A stretch of 35,119 nt of DNA from Pseudobdellovibrionaceae bacterium (GTDB taxonomy: Bacteria; Bdellovibrionota; Bdellovibrionia; Bdellovibrionales; Bdellovibrionaceae): contig JACMMZ010000100.1 in NCBI GenBank assembly GCA_014378775.1, positions 1 to 35,119 on the forward strand, read 5' to 3'. A program made the position numbers and the translations under genes. Within the stretch, counting starts at the first letter, position 1. Every line of letters begins with the position of its first letter. The notes beneath the pieces are model-generated. The model was not told the origin of the DNA. It ran no database searches and saw only the letters and a program-made list of their open reading frames with translations. This document shows, piece after piece, positions 3,040-31,612 of the stretch.

Positions 3040-3048
3040 GTGACCTCA

Positions 3049-5541: not shown

Positions 5542-5543
5542 TT

Positions 5544-8500
5544 TTACTCTTCATCTTTATCAAGCCCTTTAATTGGCTTTAAAGCCTTTCCAAATTTTTG
5601 ATAATTAACTTTAACACCATCGTCGAGATCAATTTCAAGACGTTGTGTTGCCAATGGGTAAAGTATATCATTTTCATATTCGTCGAGCTCAACAATAGTC
5701 TTCTTTAGCTGCTCAATTTCATTTAAAGCTGCTGTTTTGTCGCGCGAAGAAGAGTCGCCAGAAGCAGACAGTCTTTCAAGATTTTCTTTTTTTATCGAAA
5801 GCTTAGTTCTAAATTCACGAAGATAGCCGTTTAGAACGGTACTTACCGTATCCGAGTTATATCTATGTAAATATATTAATGCATTGAAAGTATTTTTCGG
5901 GCTGGAAAACATCCAATAAATGGGGCGATTTTTATATCTCCGAATATGATCTGCATAAAAATCTTTAAGCAAATACTTATCAAGTGTTGAACCTAAAATA
6001 GACTCAATAAAGTCAATATTTTCATTATGCAACTCAGGCCCAAATAATTCGTTTACAGTCTTCTTTACCATAGTTGTAACATCGTCAGAAAACCAACCCC
6101 CACCAACAAAAGGAACCACATTGTCTTTATCGAGCATGGAGTTAAACATACCTTTTTCTTCAAATTTGGCAGACTGAGAGGGCTGCTTCTTTACCATATA
6201 GCTACTATTTACATAATCAAATCTACCAAAAACAACACCTACAATATATGAAATAAAATCAATAATGATTTCCCTAATATTAATTTTCAATTCTGCGGCA
6301 TCATTTTCCTCAAGATTAATTTTTATTTCGTAAATATTTGCTAGAATCTCGTCATTTATCCGCTCTAGTCTTTTAATTTCCAATTTACTGTCTCTAATTT
6401 TTTGCGATAGTTTTTCAACTGAAATTCTGATGGACTTGAATTCAATAAATTCAAGGAGTGCATTGTATTTAAAATCCATGGATATCTCAGAGCTGTCCCA
6501 CTGTTGTTTAGCTACATCTATCAATTTCGCAACATGTTTAAAATCTCTTTTTTTAAGCTCCGTATACATTATTGGCAGGCTAGATATATGACCAACTTCA
6601 AAGTTCAGGGTCGGGGAAATAGCTTTAAGTATACTAATCGTTACTGAGCTATTACAAAATCCCAATATAAGATTATAATCATCTTTTGAATTGGGGAAAA
6701 TTGATGTTCCTGCCACGTCAAAAATAAAACCCTTTGGATAATACCTAAAAGCCGGCGACGAACTACTGATTTTCGACCAGGAGATAGACTCTTTAAAAAA
6801 TAAGTCGACATTTTGTGGTCGTGACCTGAGCTTGCCTTTTTCATCTTTAAAGTTTTTTATTTCATTTCCATTATTCTCCCATAGTACCACGTTCAGCTGA
6901 TTTCCATACCACTTTAGAAAATCTCCCCCTTTATTGTATGGCACCCATCTTTGCGATGAGGTCATTTCATCTGCAGATGATTTGTTAAAAGCAATCGCAT
7001 CCCTATTAACTTCGAACCAAAATCTAACAAATCTTCCATTTTCTCCTGTTTGTAGCCCTACAACTGCATTTCCATGATCAGAAAGCGGATCACTTTTTGC
7101 GAATGCTCCAACATAAGAAGAGTCTAACCAATATACCAAAGGTATTCCTGGTAAAAGTTGAAATACTGAACTCTTTACTGTATATCGCCATGGTGACAAC
7201 GTATTCGAAATAGCCTCTAGTGTTTTAATTGGTTGCAACTCAGCACCTCTAAAATCAGAAAGCTTAATGTAAATACCTTCACTGTTTGCTTTAGCACAAT
7301 TTCGTATAGTAAAAGCACAAACAGGTATACAGGCCGGCGCAAAAGAATTGTATTCAAGCTGGACTAGAGTCGTTACTGTTTTTTCTTTTAGAATCTTCTC
7401 TCTAAGTTTCTCATAAGAAGATATAAACATCCAAACGTACGGGGTCAAAAAAGCAATATATCCGCTCTTCATAGTCAAATTAAAACTTCTTGCAACAAAA
7501 GATGCAAAGATATCACTTTTTGTATCCTTAAAATTATTCAATAAAAAAAGCTTAAGCTCCGGGTTCAATGCTTTGCCACCCATATATGGAGGATTTGCAA
7601 TCAGAACATGATATCGTGATTTTAAATAAACCGATTGTTTTAATATCTTCAATACCTTTTGATGTGTATTTGAAAAAAATAATTGACCTGAAATACTACT
7701 GTTTTCTAAACTTTTTAAAACAGTATCCACATCAGAAACTTCCGGTATAATGAGTGATCCGAAATTCTCAGCTTGTTCAAATTGACGCAATGTATTTTGC
7801 AGTTGAACTGAAAACAAATCACGCCCAACATTATCGATATAATCTTCAATTTCTTGGTCATGAATAGATACGTTTTCCAAAACACATATCATTGGCTGCA
7901 CAGCAGAGCTAAAATAACGTCGCTGCTTTTCTCTCGCTTTCATTGTTAGCGCAAAAGCTGCTAATTCTCCTGCTCTTTTATCAATTTCAATTCCAAATAA
8001 ATTGTTCTTCAAAATAGCCGATGGAATTTCTTTAGGATCTACGCCATCTTCCTCATACATTGAAAAAAGTAAATCAAAAGCATAGACTAACATATGCCCA
8101 GATCCGCATGCAGGATCACATATTTTAATTTCTTCGGGACCTTTTATTTTTAAAAAATCTGTTACTTCCGATTCCGGTTTTATGAAGTATTCCATCTTTG
8201 AAACAAGATTCGAGCTAGGGCGATTAAGCATCCAAAGAGCGCCTAAGGAATTTTCTACTAAGTATTTAACAATCCAGCTTGGTGTGAATATTTGGGTAGC
8301 CGCAGGGATTTCTTCCTTCTTTACTACTGATCTTCTATTTATAACTTCATCTTTTTTTTCTGAAATGTAGAATTGATATAGCCATCCTATAACCTCAACA
8401 TTATTACAATTTTCTTCATCGAGCGCATGCCTAACTTTAAACACGATTGATGATTCAGATAAAAGGTCGTCAGGCATTAACAGCTCTGTATAGTCGTCAA

Positions 8501-8981
8501 TTTTTTCGAATAAAAAAGGCATGATAGAGTGGTAGTAATTACAAGTCATAATTACCAACCGTCGATAGGCTTCAGCTTGCGGATCTTTTGATAAAGCCTT
8601 TCCTGATAGTAAATTGATTACATGATCACGATCAGTTTCGTTACTTAATTCTTCTTTAATGTGACCGGCTTTGGCTTCTACTAGAATTTCGGGCTGCGAA
8701 TGCGCAGCACTCGTTGGCGAAAGTACCCCAATAAGCGAATACTGTTTTACATCCATGTATCTTAATGCGCAGAATCTGTTGAACCAAGTATAAGCAACTT
8801 TTTCAATGACTTGTTCTTTTGAAGTTGAGGCAATATCGTTTTTTAAGTCATCAACCAATCTAGATTTTGCTCTGACTTCGACGTTGTCAGTTGATAGGTA
8901 GTAGTCAATTTTGTTTGCTACGACATCCAACAAATAGCGTCGTGAATCTTGAGCAAATGACTTTAAAGCTGATGTATCCAT
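5544..8981 (-). CDS. pglX: BREX-1 adenine-specific DNA methyltransferase PglX
   Basis: SAM motif DPACGSGHMLVYAFDLLF, catalytic motif IANPPYMGGKAL, 1145 aa, BREX gene order. Confidence 0.96.
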   Translation of the reverse strand: MDTSALKSFAQDSRRYLLDVVANKIDYYLSTDNVEVRAKSRLVDDLKNDIASTSKEQVIEKVAYTWFNRFCALRYMDVKQYSLIGVLSPTSAAHSQPEILVEAKAGHIKEELSNETDRDHVINLLSGKALSKDPQAEAYRRLVIMTCNYYHSIMPFLFEKIDDYTELLMPDDLLSESSIVFKVRHALDEENCNNVEVIGWLYQFYISEKKDEVINRRSVVKKEEIPAATQIFTPSWIVKYLVENSLGALWMLNRPSSNLVSKMEYFIKPESEVTDFLKIKGPEEIKICDPACGSGHMLVYAFDLLFSMYEEDGVDPKEIPSAILKNNLFGIEIDKRAGELAAFALTMKAREKQRRYFSSAVQPMICVLENVSIHDQEIEDYIDNVGRDLFSVQLQNTLRQFEQAENFGSLIIPEVSDVDTVLKSLENSSISGQLFFSNTHQKVLKILKQSVYLKSRYHVLIANPPYMGGKALNPELKLFLLNNFKDTKSDIFASFVARSFNLTMKSGYIAFLTPYVWMFISSYEKLREKILKEKTVTTLVQLEYNSFAPACIPVCAFTIRNCAKANSEGIYIKLSDFRGAELQPIKTLEAISNTLSPWRYTVKSSVFQLLPGIPLVYWLDSSYVGAFAKSDPLSDHGNAVVGLQTGENGRFVRFWFEVNRDAIAFNKSSADEMTSSQRWVPYNKGGDFLKWYGNQLNVVLWENNGNEIKNFKDEKGKLRSRPQNVDLFFKESISWSKISSSSPAFRYYPKGFIFDVAGTSIFPNSKDDYNLILGFCNSSVTISILKAISPTLNFEVGHISSLPIMYTELKKRDFKHVAKLIDVAKQQWDSSEISMDFKYNALLEFIEFKSIRISVEKLSQKIRDSKLEIKRLERINDEILANIYEIKINLEENDAAELKINIREIIIDFISYIVGVVFGRFDYVNSSYMVKKQPSQSAKFEEKGMFNSMLDKDNVVPFVGGGWFSDDVTTMVKKTVNELFGPELHNENIDFIESILGSTLDKYLLKDFYADHIRRYKNRPIYWMFSSPKNTFNALIYLHRYNSDTVSTVLNGYLREFRTKLSIKKENLERLSASGDSSSRDKTAALNEIEQLKKTIVELDEYENDILYPLATQRLEIDLDDGVKVNYQKFGKALKPIKGLDKDEE

Positions 8982-8990
8982 ATTTTTATC

Positions 8991-11900
8991 CTAAATTTGA
9001 ATTTGATTGCCTAGCTCAAGCTCTTTTTTTAATTCAAGCTTAAGCAGTTCGATGTATTGGTCTACTTCAGTATCAGACGACAGTACGGGTTTTTTAAAAC
9101 CGACCTGAATATTTCTTAACTGCACCAATTTAATTTTTTTATCTTCAACAGGCTTGTCACTCATGCTCGCATCAGTGTTAGTTTGAGGAGCCTTTTTTGA
9201 CATCAGACGAGTCAGAATATTATTGTATTCGCTTGATTCAAAGTTCGAAGCAGAGTGCCTGATAATTTCAATGCTGTGCCTTTGCGCTAAACCAGTAGCG
9301 GCTTTATTAAAGATCTGCTCAATGTCTTCTTTTTCAAAAGAGGTCAAAAGACTATACCCTTCTGATTCTTTAATTTTTATTTTTAAAATTTCTAATCGTT
9401 GTTTAACTTCAGAAATTTCTTTGTCTTTTACAGACTTTAATTTGCTAGCAATACTTTCTTTTAAGTCTTTTGCTGTTTTGATTTTGTTACCTAAAAAACA
9501 ACCCGTATCAGCTAAAATAACCGTTACCTGGCTTACTTCTGTTGAATCAATAAAAGAAAAGTTATCAGCCTCTTTAAGTAAAAACTCTTTTACATCTTTG
9601 TAAATGTCTTTTTGCGCGCCCCCCATAAATGTTTCAATTGGCGCTATCGTCTTTTCTTTATAATCTAACAACTGATCTTCGACTTCTTTTAAGTTCGTTA
9701 AAAAATAGCCGTAGTGTTTTTTAGATAGCGAATCGACCAATTCTAATGCGGGGTCAAGTGTTACTAGAAATGAAAACTGATCTTTCTGATAACTTAACTT
9801 TCTTAATCTTTCACCAAGCTCTTTAAACTTTTCAATTGCCTCTTTGGCTAATAATTTAGCCTCTTGAGATTTCGGCTGCTCATCAAAGAAATCCTTGTAA
9901 AAATCTTTCAAGCCCCGTACCTGCGAAGGTGTAAACTCAGCTTGCGATTCAATAATTACCTGTGCATGCATTTGAGAATTTAAAATAGCACGCTCTAAAT
10001 CTTGCCCCTCTAATAAATTGCCATCAAGACGTAATTCAATTTTACCACGCGTACACAGCTTGGCTAGTGTGCACTGGGTGGCAGCCTGAGGCCAACCGTT
10101 AGGCTTGATATTAAAATCACTGATAAGTGATTTTAAAGTCATTCTAATGCCCTTCAGCGCGCTTCGTTGAATTGCGGATAAAACTTCTTGCTCAGACTCG
10201 ATCAAATCATTCGTAAAACTAATTTGACTTGAAGGATTTAAAAAAGCAGCTACCTGTTGTTCCGTATAATTTGTACCTCTCAATAATTGTAAATTCGGAT
10301 AAGTTTTTTTTACTAACTCTACAAACCCTTCGCTAATACGTCCTTTTGGGTCTTTCTGCGAAATATCCAAAACATCTGCACCTGCAGCAATTTTTGCTTC
10401 AGACAATAACTTCTTAAGCCGATCCTCAATGTCAGCTTGTCTCCTGTGATTTTGATCACCTTTTTCTCTTAAAATACGGGCAACTGCATCTTGTTGTGAA
10501 GCATTTGAACTTTGTCTAATATAACAATTAGTTTTTTGGTGCATCATCAGGTCTTTGATCAATCGATCATCCGGAGGCAGAATGACCAGTAACTCACTTT
10601 TAGCAAAAGCCTGATTAAGTATTACTTTTTCATTTCCTGAATGTTCGTGAAATGGAGAAATTATGTGGATCACGAGCTCTTTCTCACGCCCCATGAATTT
10701 ATCATCAAGTTTTCTGGCAAACTCTTTGTCATCTATACCATTTTGATCAAATCTAATTTTTCTGAAACCAAGAATCGAGTCAAAAATAGCTTTCGATAGG
10801 TCTTCAAGTAATAATTGATTGTCTATTTCGGTATTTTTAATTTCTTCTTCGATATCTTTTTCATCGTTAGTCAGAAACTCATAGATCTCGCCATTACGCT
10901 GAATATATGTCTGCTGCTCAAGAAGCGATAAAGCATCTTCTAATTCTTTTTTTAATGCAGGGATTTCTTTATCAAAACTGTCATACATTAAAACCGTAAG
11001 GTTTCGAACAGTGCACTTGAAATCTTTTACGTACTTAACTACAAATAACGCCTTTAACACCTGTATCGCAAACTTATTATCTAAGTTTCTTTCGGCAATA
11101 TTGATAGAGCCTTGAATCTGTGCTTTTAGAGCGGTTCGAAGCCCCTCAAACATGAGGTCAAATGTTGCAAGCCTTCCGACTTCTTTAGTTGATATTTGTT
11201 TTGCAACCTGCTGGAAAACACCAAGCATAGATCTTTCACCGACCGCTGTATGTTTACCTTCAAAGGCGTTATGCTCTGACAGTTGTTGTATGCTGGTTTG
11301 AAATAAATCAAATTGGTACGGTATGAATGGGTACGAAGCAATGAAGTGCTCTTTGTCTTTAAAGTTTTTATAAACTTTTGCCCCGTCTGCAAAATCGAAT
11401 AGCGTTTTAAAATTATTATGTTGCCTGTCGTAGAGTTTTGCTAATTCAGCTTTAGAGGCTTCAGTTTTACTGAGTAATCTAACTTGTATAACTTCGGAAA
11501 CGTCTGTGCTTGTTAATTTCAGTCTGTTTTCAAATCTGGCTTGAATTTTAGTAAAGTCATTACCTTGCTTCTTTGTCATGTCTCCAAGAATTGAATTCAT
11601 GTCTTCTTGCGCTGTTACAATCAGCCAAGATCTACCTTTACACTTTGTATTCAAACTTTCTGCTATTGTTTGCAGATTTGTCATAAGTTTTACATTGTCT
11701 GCAATGTACTGCCCGACTTCATCGACAAAGAAATTCAAGCGAAAATCTTTTCCTTTTTTGTTGATGTAGGCGTTTACTTGATCAGCAAAATCTTCAATCG
11801 AAAGTCTGTATTCGGTTCGATATTTTTCAAGAATACCGTCGGAATTTGAGTCTGAAACAGCATTAAAAGCAGCGTCTATATGTTTCTTTTCTAAAATGGC

Positions 11901-12482
11901 TTGCTGGCGACCTTGCTCCCAGTCTTTGCCGGCGGCTTTTTTAAACTCATCCTTAAACTTTGCTAGAATGCCACGAGAATCTAAGTCACGCTCAAATTGT
12001 GCGATATAGGATTGTTTGCCAAAATATCCGCAGGTTTCATCAAAGACCTTCACAAACACAGACAGCAATGCATCGACTTGATCTTTTCTAATAACATCTG
12101 CTTTCTGATCGATATTAAAAAGAATACTTTGCGAAGATATTGATGCGGCCTTTTCAATTTTTGCTTGCAACAATCTGTCTTCTTTACATTTAGCGATAAA
12201 CATTTCTTTAACTGAAACTCCATCAACAGTTTTGTTTTCTAAAAGCAAAGAAAGCATTTTTAGTAAGTGGGATTTACCAGAACCAAAGAAGCCAGATAGC
12301 CAAGCACCGTTTGCACCTTGATAATTGTTATAGGCCTCTAAAAATGAATCCAAACGCTTAGCAACTTCGTTTGTTAATACATATTCTTCAATTTCGATTT
12401 TTAAACTTGAGGCATCGTCAGCCTTAATAACACCTTCAATTGCTCGATCAACCGGTTTTAAAAATATATCTTTTAATAACAT
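8991..12482 (-). CDS. brxC: BREX system P-loop protein BrxC
   Basis: N-terminal LKDIFLKPVDRAIEGVIKADD and Walker A GAWLSGFFGSGKSHLLKMLSLLLEN; 1163 aa; located between brxB and pglX. Confidence 0.95.
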   Translation of the reverse strand: MLLKDIFLKPVDRAIEGVIKADDASSLKIEIEEYVLTNEVAKRLDSFLEAYNNYQGANGAWLSGFFGSGKSHLLKMLSLLLENKTVDGVSVKEMFIAKCKEDRLLQAKIEKAASISSQSILFNIDQKADVIRKDQVDALLSVFVKVFDETCGYFGKQSYIAQFERDLDSRGILAKFKDEFKKAAGKDWEQGRQQAILEKKHIDAAFNAVSDSNSDGILEKYRTEYRLSIEDFADQVNAYINKKGKDFRLNFFVDEVGQYIADNVKLMTNLQTIAESLNTKCKGRSWLIVTAQEDMNSILGDMTKKQGNDFTKIQARFENRLKLTSTDVSEVIQVRLLSKTEASKAELAKLYDRQHNNFKTLFDFADGAKVYKNFKDKEHFIASYPFIPYQFDLFQTSIQQLSEHNAFEGKHTAVGERSMLGVFQQVAKQISTKEVGRLATFDLMFEGLRTALKAQIQGSINIAERNLDNKFAIQVLKALFVVKYVKDFKCTVRNLTVLMYDSFDKEIPALKKELEDALSLLEQQTYIQRNGEIYEFLTNDEKDIEEEIKNTEIDNQLLLEDLSKAIFDSILGFRKIRFDQNGIDDKEFARKLDDKFMGREKELVIHIISPFHEHSGNEKVILNQAFAKSELLVILPPDDRLIKDLMMHQKTNCYIRQSSNASQQDAVARILREKGDQNHRRQADIEDRLKKLLSEAKIAAGADVLDISQKDPKGRISEGFVELVKKTYPNLQLLRGTNYTEQQVAAFLNPSSQISFTNDLIESEQEVLSAIQRSALKGIRMTLKSLISDFNIKPNGWPQAATQCTLAKLCTRGKIELRLDGNLLEGQDLERAILNSQMHAQVIIESQAEFTPSQVRGLKDFYKDFFDEQPKSQEAKLLAKEAIEKFKELGERLRKLSYQKDQFSFLVTLDPALELVDSLSKKHYGYFLTNLKEVEDQLLDYKEKTIAPIETFMGGAQKDIYKDVKEFLLKEADNFSFIDSTEVSQVTVILADTGCFLGNKIKTAKDLKESIASKLKSVKDKEISEVKQRLEILKIKIKESEGYSLLTSFEKEDIEQIFNKAATGLAQRHSIEIIRHSASNFESSEYNNILTRLMSKKAPQTNTDASMSDKPVEDKKIKLVQLRNIQVGFKKPVLSSDTEVDQYIELLKLELKKELELGNQIQI

Positions 12483-12494
12483 GTGTGCCTCTTT

Positions 12495-13097
12495 CTAAAC
12501 TTCACAATGAAAAACGTTAGTTGCTCTGTAATATTTATCGTCATGTAGCTTGCCAAACAAATCTAGACTTGACCCCATGGTTACAGAGTATGAATAGTCG
12601 CCAGGAAAGAACATGACAGTTGGATTATCTTTAGCGACCTTTTGCAGATTATTCAGAACATTATGGGATCTAATATATGGGTATACTTCGCCAACTCCTG
12701 AAATGAATAATATATCGTGCTCGTTTTTCTTGATCAAATCTGCAATATATGGAACAAGTTCATTTTCAGGATCTAGAGTGTTTTGCAATAGTTCTAATAA
12801 TTCATCTTTTGTGAACTCTTTTTCACGGCCAATAATTTCATCAAAGATACCACGCAACTTTAAAAGCTCGATGGAGATTAAATATAAATCTATATTCAGC
12901 ACTTGTACGCCTTGGGTTCCGAGCTTTGTTACCAGCTGTTTCTGCACACGCTTCATCTCAACTGCATCTTTAGGGCTAAATGGACAAATGAAAAAAGGGA
13001 TATCATTGCCTGGCCCTTCTTTTTTTAAAAAACGCTTACTTGAGAATAATTTTAATAGATGGTTAAATTTTTCTTCTATGGTTGATGTTTCGATCAT
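12495..13097 (-). CDS. brxB: BREX protein BrxB (DUF1788)
   Basis: ~200 aa, BrxB-like C-terminus (GVGEVYPYIRSHNVLNNLQ...PTVMFFPGDYS), operon position. Confidence 0.93.
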   Translation of the reverse strand: MIETSTIEEKFNHLLKLFSSKRFLKKEGPGNDIPFFICPFSPKDAVEMKRVQKQLVTKLGTQGVQVLNIDLYLISIELLKLRGIFDEIIGREKEFTKDELLELLQNTLDPENELVPYIADLIKKNEHDILFISGVGEVYPYIRSHNVLNNLQKVAKDNPTVMFFPGDYSYSVTMGSSLDLFGKLHDDKYYRATNVFHCEV

Positions 13098-13101
13098 TTT
13101 T

Positions 13102-13746
13102 CTATTCCGTAATTTTTCTTATTTGTTCATCGGTCAAAGGGAAAACAGTTAGCGCTCGTTGAGAATTTTTGCCTAAGGTCTTTGCCAAAGTTTTAGAAAT
13201 GTAAATGTTGTTAATAATATCGTTTGCCATAATAATTTCAGCTTCTTTAAGCATCCGAAATAAAACTTGTCTGATTTTTTTTAATGTGTTCATTGTTAAC
13301 TTATCGAGTTCAGGATGCCAATCGGCTTTTTGGTTGAAGAACATGTCAAAATCTTTGTGCGTAACTAACGGCTGAAAATGTAAGTGCTTTTCTCTAATAA
13401 CTTCGACGGCAAATTCACGAATGAATCGGTGCTTTCTGCATGCGCTAATCCACAATAATTGTCTTCGGTCTGTTGTTGAACCCTTTACTAAAAGTTCAAT
13501 TTCTAAATCGTTTAATTGTCGAAGTCTTAAAACTATTTCTCTTAGATAGCGGTCTAACGAAGCTCGCGTTTTCGCTTGTATTTTATTGTTATGAGATACT
13601 AAAGTTTTAACTTCATCCCAGTTTTTTGAATGTAGGTATGCTTCGGCTACAGCAGTAGATTCAATTAAAAACAATCCCCCCGCTATAAAAGACATGCTGT
13701 ATTCTGAATCTGACATTAAACTCTGCTTTCTGATTTCAAGATCCAT
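13102..13746 (-). CDS. brxA: BREX protein BrxA (DUF1819)
   Basis: ~214 aa, YSMSFIAGGLFLIESTAVAEAYL N-terminus and BrxA-like body; operon position. Start overlaps the upstream HTH stop (TAATG). Confidence 0.92.
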   Translation of the reverse strand: MDLEIRKQSLMSDSEYSMSFIAGGLFLIESTAVAEAYLHSKNWDEVKTLVSHNNKIQAKTRASLDRYLREIVLRLRQLNDLEIELLVKGSTTDRRQLLWISACRKHRFIREFAVEVIREKHLHFQPLVTHKDFDMFFNQKADWHPELDKLTMNTLKKIRQVLFRMLKEAEIIMANDIINNIYISKTLAKTLGKNSQRALTVFPLTDEQIRKITE

Positions 13747-14726: not shown

Positions 14727-15065
14727 ATGCTCGACACTGCAAAAGCGACTGTGGCAGCTATTGCTGCAAAAAATGATGAGTTAAGAAAATGTTTACCAAA
14801 CCCATTGCCCTTCCCACATCAAGCTTTACTTACGGATGAAATCGAAGCATTGCCGGAAGATAAAATCCGCTTGGTTCTCTTTATGGTTCGTGAATTTTAT
14901 GACTTCACGGAATCAAATGATCCGCATTCAGAACACGACTTCGGAGAAATTGATTTTGAAGGTCAGAAAATTTTTTGGAAGTTTGATTATTATAATGAAG
15001 ACATGGAACACTTCGAAGAAAATGGCCGGCGGGTTCTTTTAGTAATGTACGCGCATGAATACTGA
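14727..15065 (+). CDS. DUF3768-family protein
   Basis: RBS AAAGGAG. Motif NDPHSEHDFGEIDFEGQKIFWKFDYYNEDME...RRVLLVMYAHEY matches the DUF3768 pattern. Confidence 0.8.
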   Translation: MLDTAKATVAAIAAKNDELRKCLPNPLPFPHQALLTDEIEALPEDKIRLVLFMVREFYDFTESNDPHSEHDFGEIDFEGQKIFWKFDYYNEDMEHFEENGRRVLLVMYAHEY

Positions 15066-15191
15066 CGAAAAAAACGTTCGTTTAATACCGCCTAAATCAG
15101 CTCAGTAAAAGTCTGCCAATCACCCCTTATTTTTAAACACATTCTGTCGATAAATAGTCCACAAATACCTTAAATCACAAAAGGAGCGATT

Positions 15192-15793
15192 ATGGTCATA
15201 GGATACGTGCGCGTAAGTGGCGACAAACAGGACTCAGATAACCAGCGATTTCAACTCTTAAAATATGCAAATAAAAAAGGGTTAAAGATTGCTAGGTGGG
15301 TTGATGAAACAATTTCGTCGCGGAAGGGTTTAGAACATCGACAACTGGGTCAGCTACTTCAGGAGTTAAAGCCAGCTGATATTTTGATTGTATCTGAAAT
15401 TACAAGGCTTGGCCGAAGTTTATTTGAGATTATGGAAATCTTAAATGGGATTATGAAAAAAGGCGTAGTCCTTCATTCGTTAAAAGAAGGCTACACCCTG
15501 AGTGACGATATCAATTCAAAAATTCTGGCTTTTGCATTCTGTTAGCCGCAGAAATCGAGAGAAATTTAATTTCTTTAAGGACTCGCGAGGCGCTCGAGCG
15601 CAAGCGCAGCGAAGGCATGATCTTGGGCCGCCCCGTGGGCAGCTTGAATAAAAATACAAAACTGACAGGACAAGTGAACTCAATCCGGGAGCTGATGCAA
15701 AAACAAATACCGGTTGCAACAGCCGCCCGACTACTGGGTGTTCACAGAACAACACTCGGATCATTCATAAAAACAAGAAAATTAAAACCGTAA
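15192..15793 (+). pseudogene. Mpi/Pin-type serine recombinase (DNA invertase) disrupted by a one-base frameshift near 15540
   Basis: The first frame gives MVIGYVRVSGDKQDSDNQRF...RLGRSLFEIMEIL...INSKILAFAFC*. The -1 frame continues LAAEIERNLISLRTREALERKRSEGMILGRPVGSLNKNTKLTG...AARLLGVHRTTLGSFIKTRKLKP* to 15793. Confidence 0.88.
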
Positions 15794-16836: not shown

Positions 16837-17520
16837 TTAGTAACCTTTTTTAAAGCAATACATGTCTATCAACTTCATGTCAGGATACATTTTCAAGCCA
16901 GGGTGTGACTTTCTGATAAGTTCCAATGTGTTTTTTTGCTTACTGAACAAAGTGGCGACGCCGTTTAAACTTCTTTCATTGAAAACTTGCGATATTCCAT
17001 GTTTCTTTAGCGTCTTTTTTGCATAGGTATCGTAAGCAACTATGCACCCTAACGTACCCAAAAGTATTTTTGACGAAAGTGTATCGCTCGGATTAACCAG
17101 AAGCTTTTTGCCGTTTGTTTTAATTATTGATTTCAATTTTCTTTTATACTCTTTCTTAATTTCTTCCGATAAATTAACTATATCTTGCGCCTTCGATCCT
17201 AAATCCCAAATGCTCAATCCCGACAACCCAAACTTTTTATCAGATTTTTTAATTAATTCCACTATTCCTAAATTTACTTTATAGTCCAACTCCAACATAA
17301 ATGAAGAGCCACGATACATGCCCCAACTCGCCAGATACATTGAAAGATGTAACGCCAGTAAGTCGTAATTCTTAGCATTTTTAGGATCATTGAATGCTAA
17401 GTAACAGTGTTCCCACGACTTATACCTGTGAAACTCTGAACCGTTTTTGACAGATTGCTGGTGAAAATCTTTAATGCCGGCTTTAAAGCTCTTTATATCT
17501 ATTGGAATAGTCGTTTTCAT
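16837..17520 (-). CDS. conserved-looking protein of unknown function, third gene of the PLD operon
   Basis: 227-aa ORF 21 nt downstream of the preceding stop. Strong motif LALHLSMYLASWGMYRGSSFML. Confidence 0.8.
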   Translation of the reverse strand: MKTTIPIDIKSFKAGIKDFHQQSVKNGSEFHRYKSWEHCYLAFNDPKNAKNYDLLALHLSMYLASWGMYRGSSFMLELDYKVNLGIVELIKKSDKKFGLSGLSIWDLGSKAQDIVNLSEEIKKEYKRKLKSIIKTNGKKLLVNPSDTLSSKILLGTLGCIVAYDTYAKKTLKKHGISQVFNERSLNGVATLFSKQKNTLELIRKSHPGLKMYPDMKLIDMYCFKKGY

Positions 17521-17541
17521 TAAAATTGACCTTTGGCTTTT

Positions 17542-19164
17542 TTAAATATTTATTACGTTTTTTAATTTAATCAAATCATCACTTTTGCTAATCACGTCCA
17601 CATCGCAAAGAAGATCAATAAATGCATCAAGCCGGTCAGCCATCCAAGGAACTTCCCTTGTACCAATATCAGTTGTACCTTTCGTTGGTACAATTCCTTT
17701 GTCGTCTAAAATAAATCTTATTTTTTGTGATTCCCCATCAAACCTCGATAGAGCAATGCGTATATGTTGTGAAAATATTAACTCTTGAAAAAGTTCATTT
17801 AAGAGTTGTTTTAAATCTAATGTAGATCTTTTATCGATCCAGCCTATAAACCAAGAAATGCTGACTCGATCTGAATCCCCGTATTTTAGAAACGGGACTT
17901 TAATTTCGTCAATCCCCCAAGACTTAACTCGAAGATACCATCCAATTAAAAGGCTTATCGCTCGCGCAGAATTATTCGCATCTTCAGACTCATCAACCTC
18001 TAAATACTCAAAAAACTTATGTTGAAAATGCACAGTATTATTCCAAAGTTTGCTTGTTTCACTTAAATCAATAGTCTTATTTTTAGTAAGCTTGCCACAT
18101 TCAATATTTAATAATTCTGCAAAACTTTGAGTCGAAATGTTACATTTGGTAAGTTCATCAATAGCACGTAATGAAACTTCCTCTATTGAATGGCAACCCT
18201 CAATGAGAGATTGCTCAAAGAATACCAGTAGTTTTTCTAAAAAATACCTTTGATATTGTCGTGCCATAAAAACAGCCCAAATTTTACGATGCTTTTCAAG
18301 TTCGTCGGATAAATTTAATTTTTTACCGTTTGTCATTAGACCGGTATACCAAATCATCCTTAGATCCCAGCCGTCTATCGGACCAACTTGTTCAATTGTA
18401 CTAATTATGAGTTTTGCTGTAAGTCTTCTTTTAAAACCAGAGTCATTTGCTTCAGTTGGTAAAAGTTTTTTTAAAAATGATTTCTTAGTTGCAAGATCAA
18501 AACTTAGGAAAGAGCTCGCACAAAGCCCATGATTACCCAAGTCAGCAGCCTCGTCTTCGTTAATTTTATGATCCTTACTAATTTTTAATTTTTTATAAAA
18601 TCGACTTTCAATTAAGTGTTTCTCTAATGCTGTCATTAATTTTTTGGTGTCGTCATCTTCACTTGTTAATGGTATCCCCGTTGAAGAGCCATCGATTGCA
18701 GCTGCTGGAAACTTCTGAAGCAGTTCCATGTACTTCAATGCAGGGCCATAAAGCGGGGCAGCATAAATACTTGTGGCCTCTGTTCTTTTAACTTTTTCGA
18801 AACTAACTGGACATGGAAATTTGACTTTTTGGCCATTGCCAATTCTATTTTTAGGTTTACCAAATAAAGCGTGAGTATCGGATCCATCTGTCATATGTGA
18901 CGAAAAAATTATTTCAATATATTGTCTAAATAAATTAAAATTTGATATATTAAATTCTGCATTTTTCCAAAGTTGAGTGAACTTCCACGGTATCCAGGCC
19001 CCTACACAAAAAGAACCTGCATCTCGAGTTTGGTTATTAAGACCTGGTAGTAGCTCGTCGCTTAGAATGCCAAGATTCACAAGTCTCAATCCTAGGAAAT
19101 CTACACCACCACCTTTGTCGGAAAAATCTGTCGTAAGAAATGGTTTTTCTGGAAATGTATTCAT
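17542..19164 (-). CDS. ~540-aa protein of unknown function, second gene of the PLD operon
   Basis: The ORF extends to 19230, but the internal ATG at 19164 forms an ATGA overlap with the upstream PLD gene stop. N-terminus DFLGLRLVNLGILSDELLPGLNNQTRDAGSFCVGAWIPWKF vaguely recalls DUF6361-like proteins (from memory only). Confidence 0.8.
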   Translation of the reverse strand: MNTFPEKPFLTTDFSDKGGGVDFLGLRLVNLGILSDELLPGLNNQTRDAGSFCVGAWIPWKFTQLWKNAEFNISNFNLFRQYIEIIFSSHMTDGSDTHALFGKPKNRIGNGQKVKFPCPVSFEKVKRTEATSIYAAPLYGPALKYMELLQKFPAAAIDGSSTGIPLTSEDDDTKKLMTALEKHLIESRFYKKLKISKDHKINEDEAADLGNHGLCASSFLSFDLATKKSFLKKLLPTEANDSGFKRRLTAKLIISTIEQVGPIDGWDLRMIWYTGLMTNGKKLNLSDELEKHRKIWAVFMARQYQRYFLEKLLVFFEQSLIEGCHSIEEVSLRAIDELTKCNISTQSFAELLNIECGKLTKNKTIDLSETSKLWNNTVHFQHKFFEYLEVDESEDANNSARAISLLIGWYLRVKSWGIDEIKVPFLKYGDSDRVSISWFIGWIDKRSTLDLKQLLNELFQELIFSQHIRIALSRFDGESQKIRFILDDKGIVPTKGTTDIGTREVPWMADRLDAFIDLLCDVDVISKSDDLIKLKNVINI

Positions 19165-21842
19165 GATTCCCCAATTTCTAAAATTGAGTAAAGTTTTGTT
19201 GATACCAATATAGAACCACACGAAGAGCAAATCACAGGCATTAACTCTGTTATCAATCTAAATTCGGGATTAATAGTATATCTATTTGAACAGCCTTCCG
19301 AAATGCAATAATTTTGCCCATCACGAGCTTTGATTATTACTGGCATACTTCTTTCGGCCCTATGACGTAGCTTATTTAAACTAGGCTGTGATATTTCTGA
19401 AATGCTTTGAAACAAATTCCATTCTTTATTTTGAACGATTTCTAATATTTTTTTAGTAAGCGCTGCACCTTTTATCTCGGAAACGTTGAAATTTCTTAGC
19501 TGCTCGGCAGCAGATTCAAAATCTGTCATCAATATGCCATCGTTATTTGCCGATAAATAATTTCTAAAAAAACTCTTCAATCGATCTGTGTTAGTAAACA
19601 ATGATTGCATCTTGTTTCCTGAGATTTGCTTATAAGCAATCCAGGATTTGATTGGAAATCTTTTTTTGGTTTTTTTATTTTGTGACATCAAATAAATGAA
19701 GAAGTACAAATAAGTGAGCATAGTTTCTTCCGGAGGAAGAACTTTATATTCAGAATAAATATCTTCTGCAATTGCTGGGAAGGGTTCGCCTTTGTATCGA
19801 TTTCCTTTTGGCAGCACATAGCCCTCCCACGCGGATCTATCAGCAAACAACATTTCAATAAATGACTCACATAGTTCTGCAACCGACTCCGTTTCTACTG
19901 TGTATTTCGAAGACACTCCAACTACACTACGGACCCTTAAACAAATAAGAGCCATTATTGTACACCGTGGCCAAATATTTAAAGAATCTTTCTCAGAGAC
20001 TATGCAATCGCTGAGATGGCCCCATAAGTAGTACAATTGATCAATGGTAATTTTCCAAATTTTATTATATTTGCCTATTTTCTTAGGTGGCTCTTTGGCT
20101 ACTACTGATGCTGCGTTAGTTTCATCTTCCGTGTCCCCATCAGCATTATTAATTGTAGTATTGTTAAATTCAAACTTAGAAAAATGAGCAAATATCGATT
20201 GTAACGTTTGAATGTCATTAAATCTTTTAGAATTTTTAATCCCTTGATCTAAATTATCAATTTGTATTGGCGGCCATATTGCTATTTTGTCTATGATAGT
20301 ATTTTTTTCATCACCAAGAGCTTTTGCGTTCGTATTTTTTATTACAACTTCACCGTTAATACTGGATTGATTCAAATCCTCAAAAAAGTAATCTACAACC
20401 AATGAAGTAAGTGCCGTCAAATCTAAGTAGTCAGGCGTCGCTTCACCAGATAGCAGGGCCATAGCCCCACGCAAAGCATTTCTCTGAGATGGCCCAGTTG
20501 AAAGACTAACAATGTCATTTACAAAACTAATGCCTTTTAAAGCTTTACCCTCAATACTCTGACAATCTATCGATATTGTTGCAGCCTGAAACCTTCTGGA
20601 AGCCTCGGTAATATTTTCTGGCCATTTTATTTTAAGTTTATAATTTTCTATCTTTTCAGTAATCTTGACGGCACCCCTTTGTAAGCCGATTTTAATTAAG
20701 ATACTGATTTTATCTATTGGGAAGTTTTTTTGCGCAGCCTCGTCGAAGTTAATTTCAATGAATTCACCTGATGTAGATGCAAAAAAATTTAATGAACCTA
20801 CGTTTGTTTCTGGATTTGACCTAGATATTTGACGACAACCCTCATACTTACCGGATTTATTCGAAAAATAGTCAAGAATAGTTTTTGAATTGGTTTGTCT
20901 TAATAATCCTGCTTCAAAATTAGATCCGGACAATGCTGCTAAAGTACAATTAGCACTACCGCTAAAAATCCAACTTTCTTTTTTATTTAAAATTCCATAA
21001 AGTTTAAGGTGATGAAACCCCTTTTTATCTAAATCCCATTCTCTTAATTCGACGTTTTCAATTTTCTTAACATCTGAAATATCAAAATCGATTTTATTGT
21101 CCTGATCTAAACCTGGATATAAATAAACTTTTTTAGGCTCGAATTTTGTAATGAATAACCTTATGCCGGCAACCTCGCCTCCAAAGTACGGCGCCCCAAT
21201 ATAAAGATCAGAAGCTTTTTCAATTGGCAATTGCTCTAAAATTGTTTTTCGTGAATTGTTAATAAAATGCAACTCTCTGCTCGGATTTTTCTCATTAGAT
21301 TTATGTACATTTAGTTCCCCCAATATTGAATTGATGTATTGCACTTGAAAAGATGAACTTTGTTTTATATTTGACCATTGCTTAACTAGACCCTCTAAAA
21401 AGTCGACACTATCTGCAACCAATTCTCCGGTTAATGAATCACCGAACTTTCCATGAAAAGAATCAAATATCTCTACGTTTTCAATAAAGCCCGATTGTGT
21501 AAGGTTGCCACTACCCACGAGCAGAGCGAACTCTACCTCATTAAACATGATCCACACTTTAGGGTGAAATGATCCTTTACACGGCACAGCTGTAACCACA
21601 TAGTCTTTACCTGCTGACCTTAAAGCAGGTGCTTCCTGAAATGCTCTGGCCACGCCGAGTGAGTCGGCCAAGATCATACACTTCTCGAGCTTTTCCTTAT
21701 TTATTCTGGAAAAAACTGTAGACTCGAAAAATGCCAAGCTTAACGTGTAAGATGTACCTAAAATATGTGTGGGGCTAAATAATTCAAAAAAGTCTGAAAG
21801 TGGAATTCTATTAATTTCAGACATATTCTTTATCGCATCCAA
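19161..21842 (-). CDS. Phospholipase D-superfamily (HKD) nuclease-like protein with C-terminal zinc ribbon, first gene of the PLD operon
   Basis: Two HxK modules: SFHPKVWIMFNEVEFALLVGSGNLTQSGFIENVE and FHHLKLYGILNKKESWIFSGSANCTLAAL. C-terminal CISEGC...CSSCGSIL Cys cluster. Annotated start is TTG at 21842; an in-frame ATG at 21824 is the alternative. Confidence 0.85.
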   Translation of the reverse strand: MDAIKNMSEINRIPLSDFFELFSPTHILGTSYTLSLAFFESTVFSRINKEKLEKCMILADSLGVARAFQEAPALRSAGKDYVVTAVPCKGSFHPKVWIMFNEVEFALLVGSGNLTQSGFIENVEIFDSFHGKFGDSLTGELVADSVDFLEGLVKQWSNIKQSSSFQVQYINSILGELNVHKSNEKNPSRELHFINNSRKTILEQLPIEKASDLYIGAPYFGGEVAGIRLFITKFEPKKVYLYPGLDQDNKIDFDISDVKKIENVELREWDLDKKGFHHLKLYGILNKKESWIFSGSANCTLAALSGSNFEAGLLRQTNSKTILDYFSNKSGKYEGCRQISRSNPETNVGSLNFFASTSGEFIEINFDEAAQKNFPIDKISILIKIGLQRGAVKITEKIENYKLKIKWPENITEASRRFQAATISIDCQSIEGKALKGISFVNDIVSLSTGPSQRNALRGAMALLSGEATPDYLDLTALTSLVVDYFFEDLNQSSINGEVVIKNTNAKALGDEKNTIIDKIAIWPPIQIDNLDQGIKNSKRFNDIQTLQSIFAHFSKFEFNNTTINNADGDTEDETNAASVVAKEPPKKIGKYNKIWKITIDQLYYLWGHLSDCIVSEKDSLNIWPRCTIMALICLRVRSVVGVSSKYTVETESVAELCESFIEMLFADRSAWEGYVLPKGNRYKGEPFPAIAEDIYSEYKVLPPEETMLTYLYFFIYLMSQNKKTKKRFPIKSWIAYKQISGNKMQSLFTNTDRLKSFFRNYLSANNDGILMTDFESAAEQLRNFNVSEIKGAALTKKILEIVQNKEWNLFQSISEISQPSLNKLRHRAERSMPVIIKARDGQNYCISEGCSNRYTINPEFRLITELMPVICSSCGSILVSTKLYSILEIGES

Positions 21843-22427: not shown

Positions 22428-23819
22428 CTAATCTTTTTTTGCATCCGCAAATTTTGCCATCATTGTTGGATTATTCTTTGTAAGCTTTTTAATTGTCACG
22501 TCTTCAGCCTTGCGATTTGCTAAATCCAACTGGTTCTCAGCTCCCAAGAGGACGTCTTTTGTTTTCTGCAGTTGTGCAATTGATTTATCGATTGACTCAA
22601 TCGCCGTTCTAAATTTATCAGAGGCTAATTTATAATTTCTTGCAAAGCCACCTTTGAAAGCTTCTAGCTCTTTTTCAAAATTTGTAATATCTAAGTTCTG
22701 ATTCTTAACAAAAGCTAATTCGGCTTTGTACTTAAGCGAGTTAAGCGCAGCACTTCGTAATAAAGAAATAATTGGCAAAAAAAACTGCGGTCTCACCACG
22801 TACATTTTTGGGTATCGATAGGACACATCAACTATTCCTCTGTTGTAAAGCTCATTATCGGCCTCAAGAAGCGAAACTAGAACCGCGTACTCGCAGCCTT
22901 TTTCTATGCGATCTTTATCTAATTCCTTAAAGAAATCCTCATTCTTATTCTTTTTACCGGTGCCATCAGCCTCATTTTTCATTTCGAACATAATTGAAAT
23001 TATTTCGTTTTCGTTTTCATCTGACTCTTTAAAGATATAATCACCCTTACTGCCAGAGCTGCCATCGTTATCTTTTTCAAAATAGGCCTTAGGAAATGCC
23101 ATAGCTCTTATATTATTAAATTCATTTTCACAGTGTTTCTCTAGCGTCTCACCAACCATTTTTGTAGATAGCTGAAGCTTCATATCTTTAAGTCTTTCAA
23201 TCGAATCGTCTCTATCCTTGATTTGCGTTTCGTATTTTTCTTTAAGTGACTTTTCTGAAAGCTCTTTTTCAAGTTTCAGTTTATCGACGCTGACCTTTAA
23301 TGAATCTCTTTCTTTTTCAACAATCCCAACCGCTTCTGACACTTTAAGTTTTTGTGTCAGCTCAGCAGTATCCAACTTTGATTTGAGAGCAGAAATCTCG
23401 GCCTCTTTTTCAGCCTTGGTTTTATCGACTTCAGCCGCTAGCTTTACTTCAGAGACCTGCGTGGCCGCCAATTTTTCTTGCTCGATTTTTTCGATTTTCG
23501 ACACAAGCAAGTCACGCTCTCTTTCGACCTTAGTGAGTGCGTCTTTAGCTGCCGCCTGAAGAGCTAATTCAGTCGAGACAAGTTTATTTTTCATCTCTTG
23601 AATTTCTGATTCCTTGACTGATGAGTTCTTCTGAAACTCAGCGGTTAGCTTGGCCTTTTCTAGCTCAACTGCTGAGTTTTTCTCTTTTTCAGCAATTTCA
23701 AGGCGATTATGGATCTCCTTTTCAAAGTCACCATCGCGAACTTGCTTTAAAATTGCAGCATACCCCGCCTCATCAATCTTAAAAGCCTTACTACAGTGCG
23801 GACATCTTATTTCGTTCAT
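22428..23819 (-). CDS. DUF2130-family protein (Zn-ribbon, coiled coil, PD-(D/E)XK-like domain)
   Basis: N-terminal [36 protein letters not shown], long coiled coil, then [10 protein letters not shown]...[31 protein letters not shown], typical of DUF2130. Confidence 0.88.
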
Positions 23820-24629: not shown

Positions 24630-25520
24630 TTAAGATTTTAAGCCAGTTATCTGATGATTTTCGGAATTAAAGTTTGCAAACCATACGTCAGCCCGCTTGA
24701 ACAAACCGTGACTTAAGTTTTTTTCGTTTTCAAATAGGGTAAAGCGAATTGTGTCATCTGCATTTTCGTCATAATATTTTTTTCGATAAATTAAGACTAA
24801 TTTGTCAATAGATCTGAAATCGCGAATTTCTCTTAAATCTGTTGGAAGTGGTCTTTTGTCCAACCTAGATTCCATTCCTAGATTAATCTGACTAGCTACA
24901 ATGACGACTAAATTAAGATCTGTGGACATTGTTTTAAGATTCTTTAAAATGTCTTCAACCTCAAGTAATCGATTCGGGAATTTTTGCTCACTATTTAGCA
25001 ATTGAATATAATCTACAAAAACATACTTGAGTGTTGATTGTTGTGCTTTATAAAGCTCAACACGTTTTCTTAAGTCTTGTACTGACAAAGTGTACGAATC
25101 ATCAATTTCTGCTAGGCCATTTGAAAATGAACTAAAGCCTATTGCTGTATCTTGCTGACTTCTGTACATAGCATTTAGACTTTTAATGCCAACGTCGGAT
25201 TGCAGCGATTGCCATCGCTGCAAAGCCTTTGCTTTACTTAGTTCTATTGAAAAAAAGAGGCTTTTGTATTCTTTGAATTCAGAAACTTCATCTAATAAGT
25301 TGAGCATAACAGCCGACTTACCCATACTGGGTCTGCCCGCAATTATGACTAATTTCGAAAAGGTTTCATTGCCAACCAATGCTTCAAACAGAGGTTTCGG
25401 TTTTTCAATAAACGCTTTTAACTTAAAACTGTTTTCCGTATTTGCGATTGCCTGTGCTGTATTAAATAAAGTGTACAGCGGAAATAATCCGGCAAATTTT
25501 ATGAGTGTTCGTCTTTTCAT
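24630..25520 (-). CDS. DnaB C-terminal-domain-like (RecA-fold) ATPase with a Tat-signal-like N-terminus
   Basis: Walker A IIAGRPSMGKSAVMLNLL, Walker B KYVFVDYIQLLNS, VIVASQINLGMESRLDKRPLPTDLREIRDF are all DnaB-C motifs. N-terminus MKRRTLIKFAGLFPLYTLFNTAQAIA. Confidence 0.85.
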   Translation of the reverse strand: MKRRTLIKFAGLFPLYTLFNTAQAIANTENSFKLKAFIEKPKPLFEALVGNETFSKLVIIAGRPSMGKSAVMLNLLDEVSEFKEYKSLFFSIELSKAKALQRWQSLQSDVGIKSLNAMYRSQQDTAIGFSSFSNGLAEIDDSYTLSVQDLRKRVELYKAQQSTLKYVFVDYIQLLNSEQKFPNRLLEVEDILKNLKTMSTDLNLVVIVASQINLGMESRLDKRPLPTDLREIRDFRSIDKLVLIYRKKYYDENADDTIRFTLFENEKNLSHGLFKRADVWFANFNSENHQITGLKS

Positions 25521-26114: not shown

Positions 26115-26128
26115 CGTTACGTGCTGCT
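26115..26128. repeat. Direct repeat copy 2, CGTTACGTGCTGCT
   Basis: Identical to 24575-24588. Confidence 0.8.
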
Positions 26129-27614
26129 AACTATGGTGCTGAAGCCACCTAAATAACTCAACCATCGCCATCGTGTCTTGCCGGCAATAGGCCAGCATAT
26201 CTTCAACGACTTGGTTTTTTGCTTTTGGGTCAATTTTTCCGCGTAAAATCAATTCGGCAAAGGCTTGTGTCGTCGAGCCATCCCCAATCGTTAAATTCTT
26301 GTAATTTAATTTTTCACCGATTAAAGCCGGCGCCACTTCTTTAATACTAAAACTACCGTAAAATTCCGGATGATAAACGGCACTTCTAAAGAGCGGTAGT
26401 GGATCGACGAATCTTTCGACCAAGGCCAATAGAGCTTTGCGATTTTTCTTATCTTGTTCGGCCAGTTTTTTTATAACTCCAATTTCGAATACTTTGTTGT
26501 AACTAACAATGCTTCCTTTAGCGCCAAGGCCATCAAGCATGGCTTTTATTATGCCAGCGCGCGGGTCGCTGGCTTCGGTATGTAAATACTCAAAGTGTTT
26601 CAACTTTGAACTCCTTGCTGATTCTAAAATATAGCAACTAAATTGAAATGGTATTTTACCATAAGGGTGCGTTCCCTCATATCTTGGAATCGCAGGGTTA
26701 ATTGTTTCGAAGTCGAAAAAGTAGAGTGGAAACTTCCATGTTGCCAGCTCTGATTTGATTTGAGATTTATCTACAAAAAGCTTGTTACTTTTAGTAACTT
26801 CTATGGCGCGTTTGGTATTATTTTTAAAATCTTTGGGGTCTAAATCTGTGATTTTTATTTTACCTGCGTTATAAAGCTCCCAGACTTTTTTACCGCGCAC
26901 ACCGGGTAGTGCAAAAATTGATTTTTTAGGAATATTTTTCCAGCACGTGCTTTTAAAAGGACAGCCGTAGGGATCACTACAATACGGGCCAATTTCTTTT
27001 TCGGGTAGTTTTGTGGCTAGTGCCACTTTTAATAATGTCTTAATGTTTTTATTTACGCTTGCTTGCATTGCGCGGACTTCTTTTGTGATATCAACAGTTC
27101 CAAAAATATTTTTTAAATCTGGATACGTCACTTCGGTGTTAATGTGTCTTATTGAAATTGATGCCAAATTTAAGCCGGTGCTTTCAATAACTATAGACTG
27201 AATAGCAGCGTCTTGATAATACTGCTCTTTAACTTCTGAAGCTTTTTTGACTTCAATTAAATGCCAGCCTTTTTTATCTTTCTTAAGTATGTCAACTCTA
27301 GCAAAAATGCCGTTATTTAAAAACGAAGCTTCAAATATTAATGTTTCACCATCGGCCAATGCTTTTTCTGTTAAATCGTGAGCTTTTTTATAATCCCAGT
27401 AATCGGCCTGAATAAGTACGCCCACGCCCGCGTGTTTACGCGCAAGCTCGCCCACTTCATTACCTTCATCGAACTGCATTTGCGTGGCTGCATCGGTATC
27501 TGCAGCGGCTTCAGGTTGATTTATTGATAGCCATAAGTATTTTTCGCATTGAAAGCCCTTCATTAACGAAGATTTTGAGAGGGTTTTCGGTTTCGTTTTT
27601 TTACTTTCGGCCAT
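26127..27614 (-). CDS. DUF2779-family protein (Cas4-like PD-(D/E)XK with Fe-S cysteines, plus RNase H/DEDD exonuclease-like domain)
   Basis: LSKSSLMKGFQCEKYLWL, IFARVDIL...HLIEVKKASEVKEQYYQDAAIQ, YCSDPYGCPFKSTCW, YFFDFETINPAIPRYEGTHPYGKIPFQFSCY, YCRQDTMAMVELF. Confidence 0.92.
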   Translation of the reverse strand: MAESKKTKPKTLSKSSLMKGFQCEKYLWLSINQPEAAADTDAATQMQFDEGNEVGELARKHAGVGVLIQADYWDYKKAHDLTEKALADGETLIFEASFLNNGIFARVDILKKDKKGWHLIEVKKASEVKEQYYQDAAIQSIVIESTGLNLASISIRHINTEVTYPDLKNIFGTVDITKEVRAMQASVNKNIKTLLKVALATKLPEKEIGPYCSDPYGCPFKSTCWKNIPKKSIFALPGVRGKKVWELYNAGKIKITDLDPKDFKNNTKRAIEVTKSNKLFVDKSQIKSELATWKFPLYFFDFETINPAIPRYEGTHPYGKIPFQFSCYILESARSSKLKHFEYLHTEASDPRAGIIKAMLDGLGAKGSIVSYNKVFEIGVIKKLAEQDKKNRKALLALVERFVDPLPLFRSAVYHPEFYGSFSIKEVAPALIGEKLNYKNLTIGDGSTTQAFAELILRGKIDPKAKNQVVEDMLAYCRQDTMAMVELFRWLQHHS

Positions 27615-30466: not shown

Positions 30467-31612
30467 ATGTCATACAAAAGAGATTTCAACATACCGAAGA
30501 CAAGCTTTTTTCTACTGGGCCCCAGGGGCTCTGGCAAAACAACCATGCTTAAGAATTTGAATTTCGCGAGCCACACGATAGATTTGCTTGATAGCCAAAA
30601 TTTTCGCAGGCTTTCAGCCAATCCGCATTTATTGTATGAAGAACTATCAAGTTTAAAAGCGAATTCTTTTGTTATAATAGATGAAATTCAAAAAATTCCA
30701 GAGTTACTGAATGAGGTCCATCGCTTGATTGAAAATAAAAAAATTAAATTTGCATTAACCGGATCAAGTGCAAGAAAGCTTAAATCTGTTTCAGCAAATT
30801 TACTGGGTGGACGAGCCGCTTTAAAATACATGTACCCATTAACTCCGCATGAAATGGGTGCTGATTTTAATTTAAATCAAGCGCTTGAACTAGGGACGTT
30901 ACCGTTAATTATTAAATCTGATGACCCTGAAGAAACTTTAAAATCGTATGTCGATCTGTATTTAAAAGAAGAAATACAGGCTGAAGCTTTAGTTCGAAAC
31001 TTATCTGGTTTTATTAGATTTTTACCGATCGCGGCTTTGATGCATGGCCAGAAAATTAATTTATCATCGATTGCCCGTGATTCAGAAGTTCAAAGAGCTA
31101 CCGTTCAAGGTTTTTTTTCAATCCTAGAGGACACACTTCTTGTCAGAAGACTCGAAGCCTATCAAGCCAAAATAAGAGTTCGAGAGCAACAAAAAGCGAA
31201 ATTTTATTTTATTGATCCCGGCATTGTGCGCTCTTGCAAAAACATAAAAGGTGAAGTGGCTGCCGAAGAAAAAGGAAGCTTATTCGAAGGTCTTATTTTT
31301 ACCTTACTTACAATTCAAAAAGAAATGCATCAAGATATAGACAGTCTTCATTACTGGTCGCCAGCCGAAGCAAAAAATACAGAAGTCGATTTTTTAATTT
31401 CAAAAGGAAAAGGAAAAATTGCCGTCGAAGTTAAGTCTGGCACACAAGTTAGTACTGCAGATCTAAAAGGACTTAAGGCCATCACAGAATTGAAATCAGT
31501 TAAGCGAAAAATAATTGTTTACAATGGAAACACAAGCCGAACTACCGCAGAGGGAATTGAAATAATGCCCTTTAAAACTTTTATAAATGAACTCGCGAAG
31601 AAAAATATATAA
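30467..31612 (+). CDS. ATP-binding protein, AAA_14 + DUF4143
   Basis: FFLLGPRGSGKTTMLKNL, SFVIIDEIQKIPELLNEVHRLIE, FALTGSSARKLKSVSANLLGGRAALKYMYPLTPHEM, ...EVDFLISKGKGKIAVEVKSG. Confidence 0.93.
   Translation: MSYKRDFNIPKTSFFLLGPRGSGKTTMLKNLNFASHTIDLLDSQNFRRLSANPHLLYEELSSLKANSFVIIDEIQKIPELLNEVHRLIENKKIKFALTGSSARKLKSVSANLLGGRAALKYMYPLTPHEMGADFNLNQALELGTLPLIIKSDDPEETLKSYVDLYLKEEIQAEALVRNLSGFIRFLPIAALMHGQKINLSSIARDSEVQRATVQGFFSILEDTLLVRRLEAYQAKIRVREQQKAKFYFIDPGIVRSCKNIKGEVAAEEKGSLFEGLIFTLLTIQKEMHQDIDSLHYWSPAEAKNTEVDFLISKGKGKIAVEVKSGTQVSTADLKGLKAITELKSVKRKIIVYNGNTSRTTAEGIEIMPFKTFINELAKKNI

Follow-up and report, generated by a model that had tools for sequence, protein, structure and literature searches.

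A gene pair for a ZacB-like PLD protein and a ZacA-related partner, without the helicase of Azaca, in a Pseudobdellovibrionaceae bacterium

Layout of the locus

The window, by which we mean the whole analyzed stretch of 35,119 nucleotides (contig JACMMZ010000100.1 of a Pseudobdellovibrionaceae bacterium), carries three open reading frames on its minus strand that a first-pass annotation had regarded as a candidate three-gene defense operon (Table 1). ORF calling reproduced the three codirectional genes with the coordinates claimed, and the sequence itself shows the ATGA by which genes 1 and 2 overlap (19164-19161) as well as the 21-nt spacing between genes 2 and 3. Gene 1 has two possible starts, the TTG at 21842, which gives 893 aa, and the in-frame ATG at 21824; the 540 aa of gene 2 are counted from its ATG, and the mechanically called ORF begins with a TTG at 19230.

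Table 1. Coordinates of the three genes and of the elements recognized in the proteins of genes 1 and 2
Feature	Position	Strand	Evidence
Gene 1, ZacB-like PLD protein, 893 aa	19161..21842	-	ORF; PADLOC, Foldseek, hhalign
Gene 1, two-lobed PLD region, residues ~26-325	20868..21767	-	AlphaFold pLDDT mostly >85; Foldseek
Gene 1, PLD half-site 1, H93-x-K95 ... S111-x-N113 ... E124	21471..21566	-	Invariant, 52 homologues
Gene 1, PLD half-site 2, H278-x-K280 ... S296-x-N298 ... E310	20913..21011	-	Invariant, 52 homologues
Gene 1, FnIII-like beta-sandwich, residues ~353-443	20514..20786	-	AlphaFold strands; weaker Foldseek FnIII matches, E 5e-3
Gene 1, C-terminal cysteine cluster (C-x4-C ... C-x2-C), putative zinc ribbon	19218..19307	-	Sequence; model confidence low
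Gene 2, ZacA-related partner, 540 aa, mostly helical	17542..19164	-	ORF; adjoins gene 1 in 82/87 loci; AlphaFold
Gene 2, ZacA/DUF6361-like N-terminal motif, residues ~19-85 (G-x-D-x-LG-L-R ... L-PG-x-N-N ... W)	18910..19110	-	hhalign vs ZacA
Gene 2, C-terminal helix and two short beta hairpins, possibly winged-helix-like	17563..17814	-	Model secondary structure; conserved R/L pattern in alignments
Gene 3, 227 aa, judged outside the conserved module	16837..17520	-	0/86 other gene-1 loci; phage/viral relatives

A complete type 1 BREX set with strong PADLOC matches (brxL, pglZ, pglX, brxC, brxB, and brxA) occupies positions 967-13746 on the minus strand of the window. Genes 1 and 2 recur beside many other systems and do not belong to this set. 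Between BREX and the pair, at 14727-15545 on the plus strand, a DUF3768 gene is followed by a 117-aa N-terminal resolvase fragment, which suggests the remnant of a mobile element. Immediately upstream of gene 1 lies the gene for a DUF2130 protein whose N-terminus bears a zinc-ribbon-like motif (22428-23819, minus strand). The window also encodes a 296-aa protein, flanked by two small genes, that has the C-terminal helicase domain of DnaB only and is not a full replicative helicase (24630-25520, minus strand), a DUF2779/TM0106-like nuclease of the RecB family that contains an RNase H-like stretch and weakly resembles Cas4 (26127-27614, minus strand), and an AAA_14 and DUF4143 ATPase that matches the PADLOC candidate PDC-S01 with E 7e-53 (30467-31612, plus strand).

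Predicted structures of the proteins

The two HxK/GSxN half-sites that had been recognized in gene 1 are present, and their catalytic residues are invariant over 52 homologues. The AlphaFold model, compared with solved structures using Foldseek, bears out the PLD fold on which this assignment hinged: it is two-lobed and Tdp1-like, with Tdp1 as the best match (E 9e-11), followed by PPK1, SauUSI, the NgoAVII R protein, and BfiI. A PDB-sequence profile search with gene 1 also matched SauUSI and BfiI, and Pfam gave a sub-threshold PLDc_2 match. Gene 1 thus has what characterizes the PLD (HKD) superfamily, namely a PLD fold that contains two half-sites of the pattern HxK...GSxN...E. The model is confident for the PLD region, fairly confident for the sandwich that follows it, and poor beyond residue ~490. 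The center of the protein, which had been considered unassignable, is so in part only, as the FnIII-like sandwich is found there and a helical region of low confidence comes after it. The C-terminal cysteine cluster is real in the window sequence; a crude count of cysteine patterns found it in 36 of 44 members of the branch with gene1>gene2 order and in 3 of 34 members of the other branch, and CxxC pairs were not seen in the gene-1 tails of the two closest relatives (loci L035 and L036).

SauUSI, BfiI, and the NgoAVII R protein have the same PLD/HKD nuclease fold and active-site pattern as gene 1. In SauUSI a helicase, and in BfiI a specificity domain, is part of the same chain, whereas no search found either of these in gene 1, which has a separate partner instead. 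Tdp1 (tyrosyl-DNA phosphodiesterase), the best solved fold match, likewise has two PLD lobes per chain, but it is a eukaryotic repair enzyme with neither a partner gene nor the C-terminal parts, and the identity is only ~12%. PADLOC also matched the PLD motifs of gene 1 to DrmC of DISARM and PbeA of Pbe; as the matches were weak, the labels DISARM, Pbe, and PDC-M27 were rejected for gene 1. Among the window proteins scanned, there were no other DISARM or PbeABCD genes, and neither the drmA/drmB helicase nor the DUF1998 partners of DISARM were found.

For gene 2, the AlphaFold model is good (mean pLDDT 84, pTM 0.87) and shows helices almost throughout, apart from two short C-terminal hairpins; its fold had no match in the PDB or in a viral fold library. 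To judge from the model, the C-terminus may be winged-helix-like. Pfam gave no matches for genes 2 and 3, NCBIfam and PHROGs searches yielded nothing useful for any of the three genes, and a search for gene 2 in viral contigs found no relatives.

Pairing, spread, and neighbors of genes 1 and 2

Using profile HMMs, gene 2 was found to adjoin gene 1 on the same strand in 82 of 87 gene-1 loci, an adjacency far beyond chance. Gene 1 comes before gene 2 in 46 of these loci and after it in 36, and the two genes usually overlap or are spaced by <=10 nt, larger overlaps being due to the choice of the longest-ORF start. Two of the five unpaired loci are at contig ends (L033, L037), and the other three have a shortened gene 1 (L070, L077, L104); there, at ~8900-9900, the gene-1 relatives have 309-353 aa and no gene 2, and they are truncated copies or single-PLD forms. 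A reverse survey of 399 Pseudomonadota genomes, with gene 2 as the starting point, gave nine loci in seven genomes, with gene 1 adjoining in eight of them. At the ninth (L176:6527-8101), a lone gene-2-like gene without gene 1 lies beside a tyrosine-type integrase and is apparently either a remnant or a divergent form.

The pair occurs in many phyla. When 84,980 species genomes were scanned, 70 gene-1 loci turned up, distributed over about a dozen phyla that include Pseudomonadota, Verrucomicrobiota, Thermodesulfobacteriota, Acidobacteriota, Chloroflexota, Bacteroidota, Gemmatimonadota, Myxococcota, Caldisericota, and Actinomycetota, and the regions around further gene-1 matches repeated the pairing in Actinomycetota and Bacteroidota. 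On plasmids of Rhizobium, Polaromonas, Novosphingobium, and others, tblastn found relatives of the two genes next to each other. A search of 369 genomes of the window's own phylum revealed no other gene-2 relative, and the pair therefore was probably acquired horizontally.

The earlier suggestion that the module is placed among defense genes agrees with the neighborhood analysis. At a cut-off of E <1e-15, 219 PADLOC families were matched among 93 immediate neighbors and 2 among 93 control genes, figures that count families and not matched neighbor genes, and that are indicative only because the controls were taken at fixed coordinates from genomes of other Pseudomonadota species and have a lower average length. 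The matched families include Pycsar cyclase, Druantia, Zorya, BREX BrxL, type I RM, Mokosh, and Tiamat. A type I RM operon encloses one of the pairs, another is followed directly by genes for a DNA methyltransferase and a restriction endonuclease, and others are found beside Zorya or DrmD.

The co-conservation that a three-gene module would call for holds for genes 1 and 2 and fails for gene 3, which is present in none of the 86 other gene-1 loci, including L035 and L036, and is likewise absent from the loci checked later. Relatives of gene 3 with 25-43% identity were found in one phage genome (PV036438) and 15 IMG/VR contigs, with neither gene 1 nor gene 2 beside them within the contig stretches examined, and plasmids gave no match. 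This unnamed family (16837-17520 in the window; L007-L022) comprises proteins of ~230 aa with the motif YLASWGMYRGSSF, and it had no match in Pfam, PADLOC, PHROGs, or NCBIfam. Its members occur solo in phage or viral contigs, some of them near recombinase-type genes, and beyond recombinase-like genes no widely conserved partner was found in the viral contigs.

Kinship to Azaca and proposed function

The best PADLOC match of gene 1 was ZacB of Azaca (E 8e-11), and two gene-2 relatives matched ZacA weakly; true Azaca loci were therefore collected by a ZacA profile search of genomes. A PLD-like domain has been stated for Azaca (PMC10952713), ZacC has been given as a helicase (PMC10925250), and the mechanism has been listed as unknown (PMC12926258). 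In the true loci, ZacA (DUF6361, E 1e-76), ZacB, and the DEAD-type helicase ZacC are encoded in one operon, and ZacC was present in 9/9 loci that were read far enough. In hhalign comparisons, the gene-1 family aligned with ZacB over 280 columns of the PLD domain (probability 99.6) and the gene-2 family with ZacA over 65 N-terminal columns (probability 90.9, E 1.2e-6), while mismatched profile pairs, which served as control, reached 0.1-0.4. When the 399 Pseudomonadota genomes were searched, the ZacA profile gave four ZacA and three weak matches, all three being gene 2, and the sole weak extra match of the gene-2 profile was a ZacA. The similarity of gene 1 to ZacB alone would prove little because PLD domains are widespread, and the similarity of gene 2 to ZacA, as judged by profile alignment, is limited to ~65 columns, which weighs against the reading preferred below.

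As in Azaca, where ZacB is encoded beside ZacA, a PLD protein stands beside its partner, the PLD domains are homologous, the N-terminal motif of ZacA is common to gene 2, and one of the two branches (gene2>gene1) has the gene order of ZacA>ZacB. Unlike Azaca, the pair lacks the ZacC helicase, and the gene order is reversed in the window's branch. Gene 2 is longer than ZacA (about 500-560 versus about 390-440 aa), and outside the aligned columns it does not belong to DUF6361, as neither gene 2 nor its relatives gave a DUF6361 match. Gene 1 is longer than ZacB (about 780-950 versus about 610-660 aa), and its additional parts are FnIII-like, helical, and, in one branch, rich in cysteine. A quick tree of the N-terminal 520 residues, with some long branches, placed ZacB on a single branch (support 100) and the window's gene 1 with two Verrucomicrobiota sequences (support 100), while the gene1>gene2 order makes up one side of a branch (support 80). 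Gene 1 has the PLD domain expected of a ZacB, though it branches apart from ZacB.

Having no ZacC and no DUF6361, the pair is not counted as a member of Azaca, and its kinship to ZacB and ZacA without ZacC therefore makes it a helicase-less sister of that system. A divergent yet true Azaca that obtains its ZacC from another place in the genome is an improbable reading of the pair: the homology of both genes and the matching order in one branch would agree with this, but no ZacC-like gene is present in any locus of the pair, where the best helicase is a DrmD-type protein with E 2e-13, whereas a true ZacC scores near zero, the ZacC profile gave weak generic helicase matches in 12 host genomes, and the fully supported branch is ZacB's own. 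We also see little prospect that all three genes of the window form one functional operon in which gene 3 is a lineage-specific accessory of the PLD module, e.g., an immunity or sensor protein. Gene 3 is possibly co-transcribed with the pair, and the short gap, the shared strand, and a terminator-like site directly 3' of gene 3 would fit this, but its absence from every other gene-1 locus and the solo occurrence of its relatives on phage-type contigs speak against a component of the module. Gene 3 is a neighbor.

Because the solved fold that gene 1 matches best is that of a repair enzyme, the helicase-less pair could also be thought to repair protein-DNA adducts or to control plasmids, and the many copies on plasmids would suit such a non-antiviral role. 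We consider this role unlikely, since the Tdp1 fold is common to restriction nucleases, the distribution is sporadic (7/399 Pseudomonadota genomes and no second copy in the window's phylum), horizontal spread together with defense-rich neighbors fits defense better, and an activity against plasmids would still be defense.

The constant pairing, the PLD fold with two intact half-sites, the kinship to ZacB, the partial kinship to ZacA, and the placement in defense islands, all seen by computation, lead us to the view that genes 1 and 2 probably constitute an obligate two-gene defense module related to ZacB and ZacA, without ZacC, in which gene 2 would be the sensor or regulator that permits nucleic acid cleavage by gene 1. 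We propose that the two proteins form a complex, and that gene 2, with its ZacA-type N-terminal motif, would recognize a sign of infection and would hold or position gene 1. Gene 1 would then cut the invading DNA, or cellular DNA in an abortive mode, presumably by a metal-independent PLD active site built by both lobes, by analogy with BfiI, SauUSI, and Tdp1. Either direct restriction or abortive killing may apply, the computed evidence fitting both alike. As there is no dedicated helicase, the trigger probably needs no DNA motor of its own, or it borrows the motors of neighboring restriction systems.

The idea of an undescribed system stands insofar as the pair has no name in the catalogues and papers searched, and it has to be qualified insofar as kin exists, the pair being a sister of Azaca. 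The pair is absent from the PADLOC 2023, Pfam, NCBIfam, and PHROGs models, and a newer catalogue may name it; open-licence papers on Azaca, ZacA, DUF6361, and PLD two-gene systems do not describe it, and a closed paper could have named it. The pair may well represent a distinct and unnamed helicase-independent immune system in about a dozen phyla, in which gene 2, a protein of unsolved fold, recognizes infection directly and switches a Tdp1-like PLD nuclease. If this is true, Azaca would be a relative that gained a helicase, or the pair a form that lost one. A two-gene relative without a helicase separates the nuclease and the ZacA-type parts from the motor, and the minimal working unit therefore becomes directly testable. 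The pair would add a family present in about 2% of the sampled Pseudomonadota genomes to the catalogues of defense systems, and it points to the short N-terminal motif of ZacA/DUF6361 as a shared building block.
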